From positions 54,180 to 118,179 of the IMG/VR virus record IMGVR_UViG_3300031616_000001: 64,000 bases of DNA, one strand, 5' to 3'. Shown piece by piece: positions 9,944-18,408 of the stretch (position 1 is its first letter; every line of letters begins with the position of its first letter). Under the pieces are notes generated by a model, which was given only the letters and a program-made list of their open reading frames with translations, did not search any database and had not been told where the DNA came from. The stretch is from a virus. The translations under genes and the position numbers were made by a program.

Positions 9944-10074
9944 TTCCCGATCAATGACGTGCTTTACATGTAGCTCATCTGGTAGAGCAAAAGCCTAAAA
10001 AGCTTTGGGTAGCTGGTTCGATTCCAGTCGTCGCCGCGCAAGCGGTGGTCAAACGCACATCGACTCATCGGGAA
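9944..10074 (+). ncRNA. Y-RNA-like RNA, unit 1 (tRNA-like core)
   Basis: Outer stem TTCCCGAT (9944-9951) with ATCGGGAA (10067-10074), 8 perfect pairs. Internal loop CAAT against GACTC (10062-10066). Inner stem GACGTGC (9956-9962) with GCACATC (10055-10061), one mismatch. Then the family motif TACATG (9965-9970). The core is tRNA-like: a D-arm with GG in the loop (9973-9988), an anticodon-like arm with seven-base loop CTAAAAA (9990-10006), and a T-arm with loop TTCGATT (10012-10028). A GCAA-capped hairpin (10032-10047) follows where an acceptor would be. The bases in front of the D-arm do not pair with those after the T-arm, so this is not an ordinary tRNA. Ends in a T-rich tail. Probable Ro60 ligand by context. 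Confidence 0.8.
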
Positions 10075-10469: not shown

Positions 10470-10478
10470 ACAGTTTTC

Positions 10479-10600
10479 GTGACTACTGGAATGGCTACAC
10501 GCCTTTTAAGCGGGTTGTCGCAAGTTCGAATCTTGCCGTTCGGTGAAAGCTGAACGTAGCTCAGCGGTAGAGCACCTAAATATCCATTCCGACTCGTCAC
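10479..10600 (+). ncRNA. Y-RNA-like RNA, unit 4 (circularly permuted tRNA-like core)
   Basis: Outer stem GTGAC (10479-10483) with GTCAC (10596-10600). Internal loop TACT against GACTC (10591-10595). Inner stem GGAATGG (10488-10494) with CCATTCC (10584-10590). Motif TACACG (10496-10501). The core is a tRNA in permuted order: anticodon-like arm with loop CTTTTAA (10503-10509), then T-arm GCAAG/CTTGC with loop TTCGAAT (10520-10536). Next comes acceptor 3' strand CGTTCGG (10537-10543), a six-base loop, acceptor 5' strand CTGAACG (10550-10556, seven pairs with one G-T), and last the D-arm GCTC/GAGC (10559-10573). The natural ends lie between D and anticodon arms, where the Ro60-type stem joins. 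Tail ACATAGTTTTC. Confidence 0.85.
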
Positions 10601-10616
10601 ACATAGTTTTCAGAGT

Positions 10617-10752
10617 TGCCGCGCACTGTATCTGCATACACGCATCAGAGGAATAGCTCAGCTGGTTAGAGCATCGGGGTCAACCCCGAGGTCGTCGGTT
10701 CGAACCCGACTTCCCCTACCAACCGCAAGGACAGCAGATCGATTTCGCGGCA
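10617..10752 (+). ncRNA. Y-RNA-like RNA, unit 5 (contains a whole tRNA-like module)
   Basis: Outer stem TGCCGCG (10617-10623) with CGCGGCA (10746-10752). Internal loop CACT against GATTT (10741-10745; the other units have GACTC). Inner stem G-ATCTGC (10628-10635, one bulged T) with GCAGATC (10734-10740). Motif TACACG (10637-10642). The core holds a complete, non-permuted tRNA-like module with an encoded CCA. Tail TCAATTTTT. The rsr start codon follows 27 bases after the outer stem, so the array and rsr may share a transcript. Confidence 0.75.
10647..10721 (+). tRNA. tRNA-like gene with encoded CCA and six-base anticodon loop
   Basis: Acceptor AGAGGAA/TTCCCCT (one A-C mismatch at pair 3), D-arm GCTC/GAGC with GG in the loop, T-arm GTCGG/CCGAC with loop TTCGAAC, discriminator A and CCA (10719-10721). 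The anticodon arm is abnormal: five pairs TCGGG/CCCGA leave only a six-base loop, GTCAAC. No standard anticodon position can be assigned. It is therefore more likely a tRNA mimic or a damaged tRNA than a decoder. It is nested inside RNA unit 5. Confidence 0.6.
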
Positions 10753-10779
10753 TCAATTTTTCGACAGAGGAGAGCACAC

Positions 10780-12246
10780 ATGGAATCTGGACTCACGCGC
10801 AACCGCGTCATCAGCGAACTCACCCGCAGCCCGCACGGCGACCTCGCGCAGTACGCGCCGATTGGCCTGCAGGCGGCCGCTGAGGATCCGAACTTCTTTG
10901 CTCACCTCGTCGCCTGGAACGCCCGCAAGGGCCAGATCCGCGACGCCAAGGTCGCGCTTCCCGTGCTTGCGCTGACGGCTGCCGCGCTGCGGGATGACGT
11001 CGAGCTGCGCGACAACGCGATCGCGCACATCGTCAGCCTGGATCCGCGCAACCTCGTGCGCGCCGTGCGCTTTGCGAAGTCGCAGCCCGTGCAGGAGCGT
11101 CGCCGCGTCTCGCGCGCCGTCGAGCAGTACCTGCGCGAGCGCGAAGCCAACCCCGGCCGCTTCGAGCGCGCCGCGCTGCAGCACCGCGCCTCCATGAAGG
11201 AACTCTACGCGCTGCTGCACATCAAGCCCGGCGAGTACGCGCAGAAGGTGCTCTTTGACGGCGCAAAGGTCGGCGTGTTCGCCGACGTCACACGCCTCAA
11301 GGACCTGGATCCCACGGAAGCCGCGGGCTTGATCATGCGCAAGCGCATCCCGTTCCTGACGGCGATGGGCGCGCTCGGCGTGAAGTCGAAGGACCCGGCC
11401 GTCGTGCAGGCGCTGATCGCCGCCATGACGCCGACGGAACTCGTGACGAACGCGAAGATGCTCGAGCGCCTCGGCGTGAAGACCGACCCAGCGCTACGCG
11501 CTGCCTTCGATGCTGGCCTGATGAAGGCGGCCGACTCCGGCGCGTCCACGCTGAAGACCACGCGCGCCGCTGACGCCATCGGCGGGTCGACGGGCGAGAA
11601 GCTTCGCGGCGTGCAGGAGAAACAGATCGACAAGATCGCCGTCGAAGGCGACTGGTTGATCCTGGCCGACAAGTCGCCTTCGATGCGTGATTCCCTGGAT
11701 GTCGGCCGCAAGATCGCCGACGTGCTCGCGCGCGCCGCGAAGGGCGACGTGCACCTCGTGTGGTTCGACTCGGGGCCGACGTACTTCAACGTCACCGGCA
11801 AAACGTACGACGAGATCATGGAGCTGACGAAGCGCATCACCGTGAGCGGTGGCACGGACATCGGCATTGGCCTCGAATACGCGCTCGAGAAGAAGCTCAT
11901 CGTCGACGGCATTGCAGTCGTCTCGGACGGCGGCGACGGCCGTGCCGGTGGCTTCAGCCGGGCGTATCAGAAGTACAGCGACTTCGCCGGCAAGGACGTG
12001 CCGGTGTACTTCTACAAGCTCGCCGGCGACCCCGACACGTTCACGGATCGCGTGGTGGCCGATGGGATCTCCATGCAGGCCTTCGACCTGCGTGGCGGCG
12101 TGGACTTCTACTCACTGCCTGCTGTCGTGACCACGATGCGCACCAATCGCTTCGGGCTGGCCGAGGAGATCCTCGAGATGCCGCTGCTGCGACTGGCCGA
12201 CGTGCTGCGCAGCAATGTGGTTGCCGCAGAGTTGGTGGCGGCCTGA
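10780..12246 (+). CDS. rsr: Ro60/TROVE domain protein (Rsr)
   Basis: ATG 10780 with AGGAG (10767-10771) upstream; 488 aa. The first about 270 residues are helical repeats with TROVE-like segments (RNRVISELTRSPHG, FFAHLVAWNARKGQIRDAK, ALQHRASMKELYALLHIKP). About 290-440 is a von Willebrand A fold with an intact metal site: DKSPS near residue 297, SGGTDIG near 356 and VSDGGDG near 380. Ro60 proteins form a ring that binds misfolded RNA ends and, on the outside, Y RNAs. Bacterial Rsr works with nucleases such as PNPase in RNA decay and stress survival. The five structured RNAs directly upstream are the obvious partners. Confidence 0.92.
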   Translation: MESGLTRNRVISELTRSPHGDLAQYAPIGLQAAAEDPNFFAHLVAWNARKGQIRDAKVALPVLALTAAALRDDVELRDNAIAHIVSLDPRNLVRAVRFAKSQPVQERRRVSRAVEQYLREREANPGRFERAALQHRASMKELYALLHIKPGEYAQKVLFDGAKVGVFADVTRLKDLDPTEAAGLIMRKRIPFLTAMGALGVKSKDPAVVQALIAAMTPTELVTNAKMLERLGVKTDPALRAAFDAGLMKAADSGASTLKTTRAADAIGGSTGEKLRGVQEKQIDKIAVEGDWLILADKSPSMRDSLDVGRKIADVLARAAKGDVHLVWFDSGPTYFNVTGKTYDEIMELTKRITVSGGTDIGIGLEYALEKKLIVDGIAVVSDGGDGRAGGFSRAYQKYSDFAGKDVPVYFYKLAGDPDTFTDRVVADGISMQAFDLRGGVDFYSLPAVVTTMRTNRFGLAEEILEMPLLRLADVLRSNVVAAELVAA

Positions 12247-12311
12247 TGCCGATGACGGGTCAACTCAGCGACCCGCAGAAGATGCGCGAGTTCATCAACG
12301 GCTTCAACTGA
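12246..12311 (+). CDS. Possible 21-residue peptide coupled to rsr
   Basis: ATG overlaps the rsr stop (TGATG) and runs to TGA 12309-12311. The peptide MPMTGQLSDPQKMREFINGFN has no recognised family. Its only support is translational coupling, so it may equally be non-coding. Confidence 0.3.
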   Translation: MPMTGQLSDPQKMREFINGFN

Positions 12312-12336
12312 AGCTGCAACCAGAGAGGAAAGAGGA

Positions 12337-12639
12337 ATGTATCTGCAGCAACTCAAGAATCTAAACGTCGAGCGCATCGACGTCGACGAGGCGATCGCGA
12401 TGGCTACCTGGGCGCGTGCGTCGGCGAACGGCTACGACCACTACGGTGTGACGCCGCCGGCCTGGTTGACCGCCGCGATCGAGACGCTCGACGCCGAGAT
12501 CAACCGCCGCCGCCGCGACATCCTGGTCGCACGCAAGCGTGAGATCGAGGCGAACCTGACGCAGCTCCGCACCCGCGAGGAACGGCGTCACGACGCCGAG
12601 GCCGAGCTGGCGCGTCTCAACGATGCCCTCGGCAAGTAA
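12337..12639 (+). CDS. Hypothetical coiled-coil protein (100 aa)
   Basis: ATG 12337 follows GAGAGGAAAGAGG, a good ribosome site. The N-terminal half (VDEAIAMATWARASANGYD) may be a small domain. From about residue 45 it is a charged helix (LDAEINRRRRDILVARKRE, then ERRHDAEAELARLND), a likely coiled coil. No family recognised. It sits between rsr and the RlaP-like gene, so a role in the RNA module is possible. Confidence 0.6.
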   Translation: MYLQQLKNLNVERIDVDEAIAMATWARASANGYDHYGVTPPAWLTAAIETLDAEINRRRRDILVARKREIEANLTQLRTREERRHDAEAELARLNDALGK

Positions 12640-12778
12640 GCCAAAACAGGCCACCCCGAAAGAGGTGGCCTGTTTGCATTGCGCCTATCGCTGGCTGCCG
12701 CGCATCACCGGCCGGCAAGCCAAGTGCCCGCAGTGCCAGTCGCGCAAGTGGGACCAGAAGCCGAAGGCAAAACGATGA
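12623..12778 (+). CDS. Small zinc-ribbon protein (51 aa)
   Basis: ATG 12623 lies inside the end of the previous gene, and the TGA (12776-12778) overlaps the ATG of the RlaP-like gene as ATGA. The protein has two Cys pairs, VACLHCAYRW and AKCPQCQSRKW, 18 residues apart, followed by a Lys-rich tail (KPKAKR). This is a classical zinc ribbon. Coupling to the nucleotidyltransferase suggests it is an RNA-binding accessory or a regulator of it. Confidence 0.65.
   Translation: MPSASKPKQATPKEVACLHCAYRWLPRITGRQAKCPQCQSRKWDQKPKAKR
12644..12675 (+). terminator. Bidirectional hairpin
   Basis: AAACAGGCCACC (12644-12655) pairs perfectly with GGTGGCCTGTTT (12664-12675) around the loop CCGAAAGA. It starts five bases after the stop of the coiled-coil gene and has a short T-run, so it could attenuate transcription. 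It lies within the small zinc-ribbon frame, so partial read-through into the nucleotidyltransferase is expected. Confidence 0.6.
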
Positions 12779-13530
12779 AGACCACCATCCTCGAAGCCGT
12801 TGTTGGCTCGACGGTTCACGGTACCGCGGTGAACGATGGTCTCGAGGACCTTGACCTCATGGCCGTCGTCGTCGAAGACCAGAAGACCTTTGCAGGCTTC
12901 AATGCAGCCGACACGTGGGTCAGCCGAACCAAGCCGGTTGGCGTGCGCTCCGAGGCTGGCGATGTGGATCATGTGGCGTATGGTCTGCGCAAGTACCTGA
13001 GCCTGGCACTCAAGGGAAACCCGTCGATCCTGCTTGCGCTCTTCGTGCCCGGAGAGCACGTGCGGGAGATCACACTGTACGGCCACGCCTTGCGCGCGCT
13101 GGCGCCACAGATCGTCAGCAAACAGGCCTACATGCCATTCCGAGGCTACATGCGTCAGCAGCATGAGCGCCTTCTGGGACTTCGCGGCCAGCGCAACATC
13201 ACCCGTCCCGAGCTGGTCGACAAGTACGGCTATGACACGAAGTATGCCGGCCACGTTGTGCGGCTCGGGCTGCAAGGCGAAGAGTTGCTGCAGACTGGCA
13301 GGATCTCGCTACCCATGCGCGACGCCGATCGCCAGCTCGTGCTCAAGGTGCGAACTGGCGGCTTCTCGCTTGCCGAGGCATCGACGCAGATCATCGACGC
13401 TGAGCGGCGGCTGGATGCTGCCTATGCGGCGTCGACATTGCCAGATCGGCCGAACTCGGAATTGGTCGAGCGCTGGATGCTGAAAACCTACCTGCAGCAC
13501 TGGTCGGAAGAATGGAGGATAGGCGGATGA
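12775..13530 (+). CDS. DNA polymerase beta-type nucleotidyltransferase, RlaP-like RNA repair family
   Basis: ATG 12775 overlaps the zinc-ribbon stop; 251 aa. The N-terminus has the nucleotidyltransferase signature: VGSTVHG (residues 10-16), then DLDLM (26-30) with the two catalytic Asp, and a later Asp in VDHVAYG. The C-terminal half (SKQAYMPFRGYMRQQHERL, YGYDTKYAGHVVRL) is the helical domain typical of RlaP-type proteins. That family is linked to RNA repair gene sets with Ro60 and RNA ligases. It probably adds nucleotides to or seals damaged RNA ends. No RtcB ligase is visible. Proximity to rsr supports one module. Confidence 0.8.
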   Translation: MKTTILEAVVGSTVHGTAVNDGLEDLDLMAVVVEDQKTFAGFNAADTWVSRTKPVGVRSEAGDVDHVAYGLRKYLSLALKGNPSILLALFVPGEHVREITLYGHALRALAPQIVSKQAYMPFRGYMRQQHERLLGLRGQRNITRPELVDKYGYDTKYAGHVVRLGLQGEELLQTGRISLPMRDADRQLVLKVRTGGFSLAEASTQIIDAERRLDAAYAASTLPDRPNSELVERWMLKTYLQHWSEEWRIGG

Positions 13531-14343: not shown

Positions 14344-14757
14344 ATGGATCATTTTGGAATCGGCGCTGCCGTCCGCGCCATGATGCAGATCTACCAGCAC
14401 TCCGCCAGGAGGAGCGGCCGCACGACGTCGCTCGTCGAGAGCGTGAAGGATGGTGATCGGATCGTCTTCTCGGATCGACGCGAGGCCGTGCGCGTGAGGC
14501 GACTATGCGCTGAACGCAAGGCAAGCGTGGAATGCATCGTCATCGATCCACATCATCCGGAGAATCTGTTCGGAAATCACGGGACCTCCGAAGGCCGGAC
14601 GATCTTCGATCACACATGGGTCGAGCAGTTCTACCTGGCGGCGATCGAGCGAGCGCAGGCGGACATCGACCACCTCGAGCGTGAGACATCCGGCTATGGC
14701 GCGGCGCATCGCGAGACGCGCCGGTGTGCTGAAGAACTAATGCGATGGAGACCGTGA
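14344..14757 (+). CDS. Hypothetical protein (137 aa), P-loop-like N-terminus
   Basis: ATG 14344. Residues 20-70 (ARRSGRTTSLVESVKDGD, then RIVFSDRREAVRVRRLC, then VECIVIDP) resemble the start of a P-loop NTPase with a degenerate Walker A (RSGRTTSL), but no Walker B was found. The last 21 residues recur, with 16 identities, in a broken fragment at 17618-17689 beyond the integron cassettes. It marks the left side of a possible insertion. Confidence 0.55.
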   Translation: MDHFGIGAAVRAMMQIYQHSARRSGRTTSLVESVKDGDRIVFSDRREAVRVRRLCAERKASVECIVIDPHHPENLFGNHGTSEGRTIFDHTWVEQFYLAAIERAQADIDHLERETSGYGAAHRETRRCAEELMRWRP

Positions 14758-15346: not shown

Positions 15347-15664
15347 ATGAGCTTGTTCCAGTGTGGTCACTGCGGGTGCTGCGAGAATACGGCTTTGGCC
15401 TCCCAAGGCTGCGACGGCTACGCGGAGAGCTTCTTTGACTGGACAGACTTCGAGGACCGCCGTGGGAAGCAGCTTTGCAGCGTATGCGCGCCCACGAAGT
15501 ACAGCGACGGCACGCCCACCGAGTTCGGGTTTTGGCACGGCCGCTTTGATCGCGTGTTTCTGCCGATGGGAGTGTTCCGCACGGCCAAAAACGGCAACCT
15601 GGAGCATACCGAGACAGGTGATCAAGAATTTCGGAAGTACGCCTTGACTGCAGTTAAGGGTTAG
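15347..15664 (+). CDS. Cys-rich protein, CbrC/zinc-ribbon-like (105 aa)
   Basis: ATG 15347 with GGAAGGA upstream. N-terminus FQCGHCGCCENTAL and a later LCSVCAPTKY give at least two Cys pairs for zinc. The stop codon lies in GGGTTAGCC, the same junction geometry as the cassette gene ending at 16841. This gene may therefore be a cassette with a decayed attC site; a hairpin (CTCCAA 15672-15677 with TTGGAG 15691-15696) follows. Function unknown. Confidence 0.6.
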   Translation: MSLFQCGHCGCCENTALASQGCDGYAESFFDWTDFEDRRGKQLCSVCAPTKYSDGTPTEFGFWHGRFDRVFLPMGVFRTAKNGNLEHTETGDQEFRKYALTAVKG

Positions 15665-15706
15665 CCGGACCCTCCAAACGCCGGCGCATGTTGGAGTTAA
15701 AACCCA

Positions 15707-15903: not shown

Positions 15904-16176
15904 ATGACGATGCATATCCGAGTCGACGCATGGGTCGACGAGCACTCCGGCAAGTACGACAACGGCCGCATCGCATGCGGTCTCGAAACGCTCCCGGAAG
16001 GCGACACGGCGGTATTCGAAGCCGACTCCTATGCCTATCACGTCGCCGACTGCCAGCAATGCAACCCCGGTGGTCCCGAGCCCTATGGCACACCGATCTC
16101 GCAACTGAGTGGCCGACCCGGGCACCCTGGGTTCGAGGCGTTCCGCGAGATCGCCGCAAGCTGGGGCCATGAATGA
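15904..16176 (+). CDS. Hypothetical protein (90 aa)
   Basis: ATG 15904 after GAGAAAGGACAC. Contains a Cys pair CQQCNPGG and beta-like strands (MHIRVDAWVDEHSG, IACGLETLPEGDTAVFEAD). Its stop overlaps the next ATG (ATGA). The two genes appear to share the integron cassette that ends in attC 1. Confidence 0.5.
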   Translation: MTMHIRVDAWVDEHSGKYDNGRIACGLETLPEGDTAVFEADSYAYHVADCQQCNPGGPEPYGTPISQLSGRPGHPGFEAFREIAASWGHE

Positions 16177-16370
16177 GCTACTGGCAAACATTGCTGCTGA
16201 TGTACCCGATATGCGTTGTCGGATACCGGACTGGGTCGTGGACCTACTGGCGTCTTAGGTCCGGAAAGAACAGCGCATCGGCGCCAACCTGGGGCGAGGC
16301 GTTCAGTGCAAGCTGGTACAGCGCAACAGGTGGCGCGATCGCCATGCTTTTGTATCGGCCAGACGCCTAA
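16173..16370 (+). CDS. Integron cassette membrane protein (65 aa)
   Basis: ATGA-coupled to the previous gene. Two hydrophobic segments (WQTLLLMYPICVVGYRTG; SWYSATGGAIAMLLY) suggest a small membrane protein. Its stop codon TAA lies inside GCCTAAC, the R'' box of attC 1, which is typical of integron cassette genes. Function unknown. Confidence 0.65.
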   Translation: MSYWQTLLLMYPICVVGYRTGSWTYWRLRSGKNSASAPTWGEAFSASWYSATGGAIAMLLYRPDA

Positions 16371-16423
16371 CGTTTTAGTTCAGCGGCTGCCGAAGGCAGT
16401 CCGCTGGAACGAAGGGTTAGGCG
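16364..16423 (+). other. Integron attC recombination site 1
   Basis: R'' CGCCTAAC (16364-16371) and R' GTTAGGCG (16416-16423) are perfect inverted boxes. Inside, GTTCAGCGG (16378-16386) pairs with CCGCTGGAAC (16401-16410), leaving one extrahelical G. The tip is CTGCC-GAA-GGCAG. This is the canonical imperfect palindrome recognised as single-stranded DNA by integron integrases. Confidence 0.93.
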
Positions 16424-16451
16424 CCTGGTTGAGAAGCGAAAGGACCGACGA

Positions 16452-16841
16452 ATGCTGAACATGCTGAAAGACCCAGCGAAGCGCGCCGAGTGGGTGTACG
16501 GCCAGCAGATGGCCACGTGCCCAGCCTGCGGCAGCTACAACATGAAGCCGCAAATGCCGATCAAGCTGGACGTGGCCGGCGACGACACAGTGCCACAACT
16601 TGTGGGCAAATGGGCGCGTGCCACGAAGGCCGGCGCCACGCCGCTGGAAGGCCCGGCCTACTACTGCTGCTGGGACTGCTCCCACAAGGGGCCGGCAGTG
16701 GACTGCACCGGGCGCACCAGCGAGGATGCCCGCCAGGACCGCGCACTGAACGCGGAGATGAAGCGACTGTGGAACGCGCAGACGCCTAACGTGAAGGTAA
16801 GCGGCGACCCGAAGGGGCGTCCGCCTTCACCGTTGGGTTAG
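16452..16841 (+). CDS. Integron cassette protein with two zinc-type Cys pairs (129 aa)
   Basis: ATG 16452. Contains CPACGSYNMKPQ and YYCCWDCSHKGP, a likely zinc-binding pair. The frame runs through the whole of attC 2: the last 20 residues (from QTPNVKVSG) are encoded by the recombination site and the stop TAG is in GTTAGGC. In other arrangements the protein would end differently, so the true C-terminus depends on cassette order. Function unknown. Confidence 0.65.
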   Translation: MLNMLKDPAKRAEWVYGQQMATCPACGSYNMKPQMPIKLDVAGDDTVPQLVGKWARATKAGATPLEGPAYYCCWDCSHKGPAVDCTGRTSEDARQDRALNAEMKRLWNAQTPNVKVSGDPKGRPPSPLG

Positions 16842-16843
16842 GC
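16784..16843 (+). other. Integron attC recombination site 2
   Basis: R'' GCCTAAC (16784-16790) and R' GTTAGGC (16837-16843). The inner arms GTGAAG with CTTCAC and GCGG with CCGC flank a short unpaired GTAA, and the tip contains CCC-GAAG-GGG. It lies 420 bases after attC 1, a usual cassette length. Confidence 0.92.
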
Positions 16844-16866
16844 GCGTGGAACGAAGGCAGAGGACT

Positions 16867-17061
16867 ATGAGCAAGCGAAAACTCAAGAAGGCGATTTTGG
16901 CGGAGGCTCTGGCTGTGTACCGCACGACAGACTTCGGCTGCCGCAGCTTCACGGTAGACGTGACAAACGGGCAATTGGTCTATGTGCATCTGCCGCGTGA
17001 GTACCGGCCGATTGAGACGCTGATGCACCTATGCGCTCAATTGAATGGCGACAGACCGTGA
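16867..17061 (+). CDS. Integron cassette protein (64 aa)
   Basis: ATG 16867, 23 bases after attC 2. Basic N-terminus (MSKRKLKKAILAEALAVY), then beta strands (FTVDVTNGQLVYVHLP) and a helix (PIETLMHLCAQLNG). No family recognised. Unusually for a cassette, about 125 bases separate its stop from the next attC; that gap holds a structured RNA. Confidence 0.6.
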   Translation: MSKRKLKKAILAEALAVYRTTDFGCRSFTVDVTNGQLVYVHLPREYRPIETLMHLCAQLNGDRP

Positions 17062-17071
17062 AGCGTCAAGA

Positions 17072-17181
17072 CTGCTGCACTAGCTCAGAAAGCCGCGAGC
17101 CGAAGTACAAGGCGGACGACAGGCAGAGCAGCCGGTTTCTAACCGGAAGGCCCGAGCAGACAGGCTCGCTCGGTGCAGCAG
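17072..17181 (+). ncRNA. Cassette-borne structured RNA with tRNA-like arms
   Basis: CTGCTGCAC (17072-17080) pairs perfectly with GTGCAGCAG (17173-17181), closing a 110-base element. Inside are TAGCTC (17081) pairing with GAGC (17126-17129) like a D-stem, CCGG-TTTCTAA-CCGG (17132-17146) like an anticodon arm, and CGAGC/GCTCG (17153-17168) where a T-arm would be. It has no T-loop sequence, and the D-region carries about 40 extra bases. It resembles a remodelled tRNA rather than a functional one. Function unknown. Confidence 0.5.
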
Positions 17182-17188
17182 TGTTGAC

Positions 17189-17245
17189 GCCTAACGTTTG
17201 AGATAAGCGGACTGTACTCAGGTCCGCTTGATCGAAGGGTTAGGC
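17189..17245 (+). other. Integron attC recombination site 3
   Basis: R'' GCCTAAC (17189-17195) and R' GTTAGGC (17239-17245). The inner arms GATAAGCGGAC and GTCCGCTTGATC pair with one extra base, and the tip is TGTACTCAG. Same architecture as attC 1 and 2. Confidence 0.93.
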
Positions 17246-17269
17246 GTGGTGAACAGAGAGGAAAGAACG

Positions 17270-17530
17270 ATGAAGTGGGAAGACATCAGCTCGCACAGCC
17301 AAGGCGACAAAGAGCGAGTGCCGAACGCATGGCAATTGGATTGCGCAGGAATTCGCTTGCGAGTGCATCGGCACATCTACCATGAGCCAACGGATTGGCT
17401 GCTCAGCGGGGCGCCATGGTTCGATAGGCACAAGCTTGCTTCTCTTGGCGCTGAGGATGCGATGCGTGAGGCGGAGCAATCTTTGCTTAAAAAGATCGCG
17501 GCCGCAAACGCCGCATTGCATGACGCCTAA
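17270..17530 (+). CDS. Integron cassette protein (86 aa)
   Basis: ATG 17270 after AGAGGAAAGAACG. Contains WQLDCAGIRLRVHRHIYHEP, then WLLSGAPWFDRHKLAS and a helical C-terminus. No family recognised. The stop TAA falls in GCCTAAC of the fourth, truncated attC, as for the first cassette. Confidence 0.65.
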   Translation: MKWEDISSHSQGDKERVPNAWQLDCAGIRLRVHRHIYHEPTDWLLSGAPWFDRHKLASLGAEDAMREAEQSLLKKIAAANAALHDA

Positions 17531-17547
17531 CGTTGTTATAGACAACA
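17525..17547 (+). other. Truncated attC (right border of the cassette array)
   Basis: GCCTAAC (17525-17531) is followed by CG and a short hairpin (GTTGT/ACAAC), but no matching GTTAGGC box is found in the next 100 bases. The last cassette has lost the right part of its attC, so this is where the acquired DNA joins the older sequence. Confidence 0.6.
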
Positions 17548-17617
17548 CGTGATGTGTTCGCACGAGTTTTGCGTCACCCAAGAATCGAGCACTGGCGCGG
17601 CGCTGCGGGGTGGCGTG

Positions 17618-17689
17618 ATGCATAACTTTGGCGCCACTCACCGCGAGACACGCCGGCGAGCCGAAGAGCTGGTGCGCTGGCGACCTTGA
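17618..17689 (+). pseudogene. 3' remnant of a gene related to 14344-14757
   Basis: Encodes MHNFGATHRETRRRAEELVR and then WRP and stop. The last 21 residues match the end of the protein at 14344-14757 in 16 positions, including HRETRR and AEEL. Upstream sequence does not match. It is the stump of a paralog or of a duplicated end, cut by the cassette segment. Confidence 0.6.
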
Positions 17690-17710
17690 TTCACCGGGCC
17701 GCGCAGTATC

Positions 17711-18370: not shown

Positions 18371-18408
18371 CCAACGGCCTCGAGGTGCAAACGCCTCGAG
18401 GCCGTTGG
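18371..18408. terminator. 15-bp perfect inverted repeat
   Basis: CCAACGGCCTCGAGG (18371-18385) and CCTCGAGGCCGTTGG (18394-18408) flank the eight-base loop TGCAAACG. No T-run on either side, so it may be a terminator of another type, a protein operator or a cruciform. Confidence 0.5.

Follow-up and report, generated by a model that had tools for sequence, protein, structure and literature searches.

The virus record IMGVR_UViG_3300031616_000001 from the IMG/VR collection carries an array of integron gene cassettes within a phage genome that lacks an integron integrase. We analyzed a window of 64,000 nucleotides (bases 54,180-118,179 of the 118,179-base record), and positions below refer to this window unless the record is named. 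The array contains attC recombination sites and constitutes a cluster of attC sites lacking integron integrase (CALIN). Judged by sequence comparison, its second cassette is a virus-specific gene that otherwise unrelated phages share, and the shared segment has the edges of a cassette. The locus was first recognized in a first-pass annotation made from the window alone, whose central claim of integron cassettes in a phage without the matching integrase is borne out by the phage genes and the integrase scores described below.

Three sites, attC1-3, are confirmed as true attC sites by sequence and by a structure model. Scanned with a strict motif, the 118-kb contig yielded exactly these three, with 0.05 expected per Markov-shuffled contig, and their spacing of 419 and 405 bp agrees with the roughly 400 bases first estimated. 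All three follow the RYYYAAC/GTTRRRY consensus and show imperfect pairing with an extrahelical base, so that the complete sites and perfect R boxes of the first-pass annotation stand. To score them independently, we used a covariance model trained on 19 attC sites from other phage contigs, with the window sites held out. The alignment behind this model folds into the attC shape, with seven covarying pairs in which both sides have changed and a one-base bulge. The model accepted attC1-3, where rejection of the sites by attC scoring had been named beforehand as able to overturn the annotation, and it gave the opposite strands only 28.6, 18.8 and 27.5 bits. No place on the contig outside the sites of the array scored better than E = 0.08.

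The sites also resemble those of known cassettes. In BLAST comparisons with plasmid cassettes, attC1 shares 88% identity with the aacA34 attC and 80% with that of dfrB2, while attC3 matches an attC of another phage contig (G014) at 92% identity over 66 nt. Conversely, the phage-built model recovers the attC sites of the aacA34, aadA15 and cmlA6 cassettes from a class 1 integron on a Pseudomonas plasmid. The fourth site, attC4, had been described as cut off at the right border, which is ruled out because its R' side is present, though mutated away from the consensus. Its outer stem (TGACGC/GCGTCA) still pairs in the predicted fold, and the model gives it 11.4 bits (E 0.73 over the contig, about 0.001 for that one place). 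It is best called a full-length but decayed attC.

The contig looks like a complete circular tailed-phage genome, 118,052 bases long once its ends are joined. The record begins and ends with the same 127 bases, and because such an exact terminal repeat is the usual sign of a closed circle, we took the genome as complete; the reading frame of the tape-measure protein also runs on over the join. Genes for the small and large terminase subunits, a major head protein with protease, the portal and tail proteins all lie on this one contig. A single phage-type tyrosine recombinase (phrog_1, E 2e-54, record 17.1-18.5 kb) suggests that the phage is probably temperate. Searched with an integron-integrase model, the whole genome gave a best score of 24-35 bits, against a cut-off of 265, and this best score fell on the phage-type integrase, which excludes the phage's own recombinase as an integron integrase. 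Since the genome is complete, the absence of intI is real. The same model found no intI in 19 other IMG/VR contigs, most of which have attC sites. With three clustered attC sites (E 1.2e-11 or better, where at least two define such a cluster), one decayed site and a phage-type but no integron integrase, the locus is a CALIN; a complete integron, which comprises intI and attI, is not present because intI is not found in the genome.

The cassette 2 gene shows how one such cassette is distributed. Relatives with 60-86% identity occur at 12 viral loci and at one locus in 84,980 prokaryote genomes, the latter a gene without attC on a contig of a metagenome-assembled genome. In six phage contigs (the window phage and G001-G005), the gene is present in cassette form or as a relic of one, and in all six R' is followed by the same leader and the gene by the same R''. 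Between the window and G001-G005, the DNA is 64-88% identical from the G|TT edge through the gene, and on both sides beyond the cassette identity drops to the level of shuffled sequence (~0.48). The lowest leader identity, 0.52, is found between two contigs other than the window. Whole-contig BLASTN of the window phage against G001-G005 revealed no common sequence beyond cassette 2, and similarity in these six contigs is therefore confined to the cassette. The encoded protein is zinc-ribbon-like, with two CxxC pairs, and ratios of nonsynonymous to synonymous substitution (dN/dS) of 0.05-0.32 across the pairs tested indicate that it is kept by purifying selection.

Some gene families exist in two states, as cassettes and as plain phage genes. 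Members of the cassette 2 family also stand amid phage genes without an adjoining attC (L022-L024, L029-L031), and a tree of the family places the attC-less sequences L026 and L031 outside the other 11, the rest being unresolved. A gene with a DHHA1 domain forms a cassette in contig G010; its counterpart in the window phage (72% amino acid identity) is a plain gene, 37 kb from any attC. At two loci (L022:4387-4992 and L026:5495-6333), two relatives of cassette genes lie next to each other, and no attC was found beside them. It is possible that these gene pairs are former arrays that have lost their attC sites.

Of the 19 comparison contigs, 14 were collected through one narrow attC pattern and five through the cassette 2 gene. 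Many of those with attC sites are plainly phages by their terminase or tail genes, and the model counts about 15 attC in G008, about 11 in G010 and nine in G006. G006 and G008 have a second whole cassette in common, with 85% DNA identity over 380 nt and 91% amino acid identity. In three contigs (G010, G014 and G018) that have tail or other genes in common with the window phage, attC sites lie at other positions, which suggests that acquisition repeats. The arrays run in the direction of the flanking phage genes in nine of ten examined. The contig G008 (L054/L055) is apparently complete, at 35.8 kb with a 123-bp terminal repeat, and its array spans the ends of the record. In G007 (L053, G007:19901-33691), about 15 attC were scored in two opposite arrays of about 6 and 11 sites, each co-directional with its neighboring genes.

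The features of the array and its borders are compiled in Table 1. The stop codons of the genes in cassettes 1, 2 and 4 lie inside an attC R box, as had been claimed for the cassettes in general; the reading frame of cassette 3 departs from this pattern and ends 128 bp upstream of attC3. For cassettes 1, 3 and 4, we found no relatives in viral contigs, a search in which cassettes 1 and 3 were combined into a single query and hence had lower sensitivity. The other searches with the cassette 1 gene gave no relative either. Cassette 4 has one distant relative (39% amino acid identity) on an Azonexus plasmid; the covariance model shows no attC array there, and this relative was rejected as a member of one. 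PADLOC gave no match, and we rejected the reading of the cassettes as known defense genes.

Table 1. Features of the cassette array and its borders, in window coordinates.
Feature	Position	Strand	Description
Phage gene left of array	15347-15664	+	105 aa (amino acids); phrog_11861, E 9e-41
Candidate left border, GTTAGCC	15660-15666	+	At stop of the 105-aa gene; weak, several similar motifs within 1 kb
Cassette 1 gene	16173-16370	+	65 aa; ATGA overlap with upstream 90-aa open reading frame (ORF); TAA stop within R'' of attC1
attC1	16365-16422	+	R'' GCCTAAC, R' GTTAGGC; closes cassette 1; 73.9 bits, E 3.1e-19; motif scan
Cassette 2	16417-16837	+	421 bp, G|TT to G|TT
Cassette 2 gene	16452-16841	+	Conserved part 16452-16781, 110 aa, CxxC...CxxC
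attC2	16784-16843	+	Closes cassette 2; 48.1 bits, E 1.2e-11; motif scan
Cassette 3	16838-17239	+	402 bp; ORF 16867-17061 (64 aa), then folded non-coding 17057-17196
attC3	17189-17245	+	Closes cassette 3; 69.7 bits, E 5.2e-18
Cassette 4	17240-17566	+	327 bp; ORF 17270-17530 (86 aa), stop within R'' of attC4
attC4, decayed	17525-17572	+	R'' GCCTAAC 17525-17531 intact; R' GTTTTGC 17566-17572 degenerate
Repeated gene end	17613-17690	+	Copies the 3' end (14679-14757) of phage gene 14344-14757, ~75% identity

To the left, the 105-aa phage gene has a relative of equal length in L075 (70% identical). We therefore rejected insertion of the array within this gene, which would have shortened it, and its natural length places the left border to its right. 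The candidate border motif at its stop codon is a variant of R' that recurs in another phage (L018), within a decayed attC. On the right side, the repeated gene end aligns with a score of 74, compared with 32 for the best of 100 shuffles, and is, from this alignment, a trace of ordinary recombination.

Based on these results, we consider it likely that the array is a phage CALIN into which an integron integrase (IntI) of the host, supplied in trans, inserts and exchanges cassettes, some of which are phage genes. Such an IntI, encoded on the host chromosome or a plasmid, would act on the folded bottom strands of the attC sites during infection or lysogeny, and could insert, remove or swap cassettes in the phage genome. 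Action in trans is supported by analogy, as Qi et al. found five of the six phage attC sites that they assayed to be active with IntI1 (PMC9892861). Phage transcription entering the array would then express the cassettes, and the cassette form may let phages trade accessory genes with other phages of the same host. As cassette 2 carries a phage gene, its cassette form would be a route of exchange between phages, and phages thus seem to exploit the cassette system of bacteria for trading genes of their own.

Several points weigh against this reading. Neither insertion, excision nor an empty site was seen, and with an undefined left border and a decayed attC4 on the right the array may be immobile now. 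Cassettes 1, 3 and 4, lacking phage relatives among those found, may be ordinary bacterial cassettes, so that the array may combine cassettes from bacteria with cassettes from phages. The tree of the cassette 2 family gives no order for the cassette and plain forms. A broader proposal, for which we see slightly less than an even chance, is that phages with integron-bearing hosts in common pool their own accessory genes as cassettes: phage genes would become cassettes, be swapped by host IntI from one phage to another, unrelated one, and be plain genes again once their attC decays.

The most serious rival is that the phage gained a fragment of a bacterial array by homologous or illegitimate recombination and carries it as passive baggage, IntI never having acted on the phage genome. 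The state of the two borders fits this account, the repeated gene end points to ordinary recombination near the array, and Qi et al. consider such routes for their phages (PMC9892861). However, cassette 2 is shared only from G|TT to the next attC, as site-specific exchange would yield, its family is nearly absent from the prokaryote genomes searched, and related phage contigs have attC in other places. We therefore regard a bacterial fragment as unlikely, though it retains a real share of the probability.

Far less credible are two further explanations. The array could be an assembly chimera of a bacterial integron and a phage, since the contig is of metagenome origin. Yet the circle closes by the 127-bp overlap, G+C content is even across the region, and G008, another apparently complete phage, has its own long array of attC sites; because related phage contigs own arrays and the cassette 2 gene recurs in other phage contigs that bear terminase genes, a chimeric join is highly improbable. 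It is equally hard to accept that the hairpins serve as transcription terminators or form some other structure in place of recombination sites. Weak transcription termination by attC hairpins is possible, according to work cited in PMC9892861, but the R boxes are conserved, the strands score asymmetrically, and the bulged base, covariation and near-identity to the attC of resistance cassettes also speak for recombination sites.

The first-pass annotation had called cassettes at a phage late/early junction unusual. Cassettes in a phage are not new as a phenomenon, as phage CALINs were published in 2023: Qi et al. report 17 in 10,705 phage genomes, from both virulent and temperate phages (PMC9892861). 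Like those CALINs, as described there, the array combines attC sites without intI and small genes of unknown function, and like phages TJE1 and PH101 of that study it has its cassettes in a single orientation. Unlike the phages of that set, as reported, the window phage comes from a collection of uncultured viruses. The main text of Qi et al. describes neither cassettes shared by unrelated phages nor a virus-specific cassette family, nor cassette genes doubling as plain phage genes. Set against that main text, what is new here is a cassette family specific to viruses, exchange of cassette-sized segments among unrelated phages, and the passing of genes between cassette and plain form. We found no further paper on the subject in the literature searched, a search whose scope excluded preprints and most subscription journals.

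Bacterial sedentary chromosomal integrons and CALINs share with this array the attC structure, the G|TT edges and small reading frames ending in attC; in contrast to them, the array has no integrase or attI, a phage as its carrier and a cassette 2 family that is almost non-bacterial. Similarly, one covariance model fits these sites and those of class 1 cassettes (aacA34, dfrB2, aadA15, cmlA6), whereas the resistance gene, sul1/qacE segment and intI1 of class 1 integrons are missing. Phage genomes with cassettes are likewise known from phage-plasmids that carry class 1 integrons (Pfeifer et al. 2022, cited in PMC9892861), but theirs, as cited, are resistance integrons, while only short cassettes of unknown function are found here. 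Phage mosaicism is usually explained by homologous or illegitimate recombination. If our interpretation is true, exchange with G|TT edges would be a further, site-specific route, for which phages borrow a system of bacteria, and integrons would gain a viral source of genes that could help explain why many cassette genes lack a known function. The idea can be put to the test in the laboratory, given apparently complete phages that carry about 15 attC.

Within the genome, a rightward gene cluster (10.8-17.5 kb) closes with the array and faces a leftward cluster (17.7-32.7 kb). About 16 kb separate the array from the terminase genes, which start at 33.8 kb; this arrangement replaces the late/early junction initially assigned to this position. 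Between the facing clusters, at 18371-18408, the 15-bp arms of a perfect inverted repeat (CCAACGGCCTCGAGG) enclose an 8-nt loop, a possible terminator.

The non-coding part of cassette 3 (17057-17196) folds much better than its shuffled versions (z -4.7, 0/200). Its predicted fold has a long stem and three arms and resembles an extended tRNA cloverleaf, with an AGCUC...GAGC arm and a CCGGUUUCUAACCGG arm; no match to this stretch was found among Rfam families, plasmid or phage records.

The region 10476-13530 contains a match to YrlA-like Y RNA (40.9 bits and E 1.9e-7, where the curated cut-off is 69), flanked by tRNA matches at 9968-10031 and 10647-10718. A protein with a VWA domain (10780-12246) follows directly, and then an RNA-repair nucleotidyltransferase of the RlaP type. 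This region looks like a putative Ro60/Y-RNA and RNA-repair module in a phage, in which the VWA-domain protein is a candidate Ro60.
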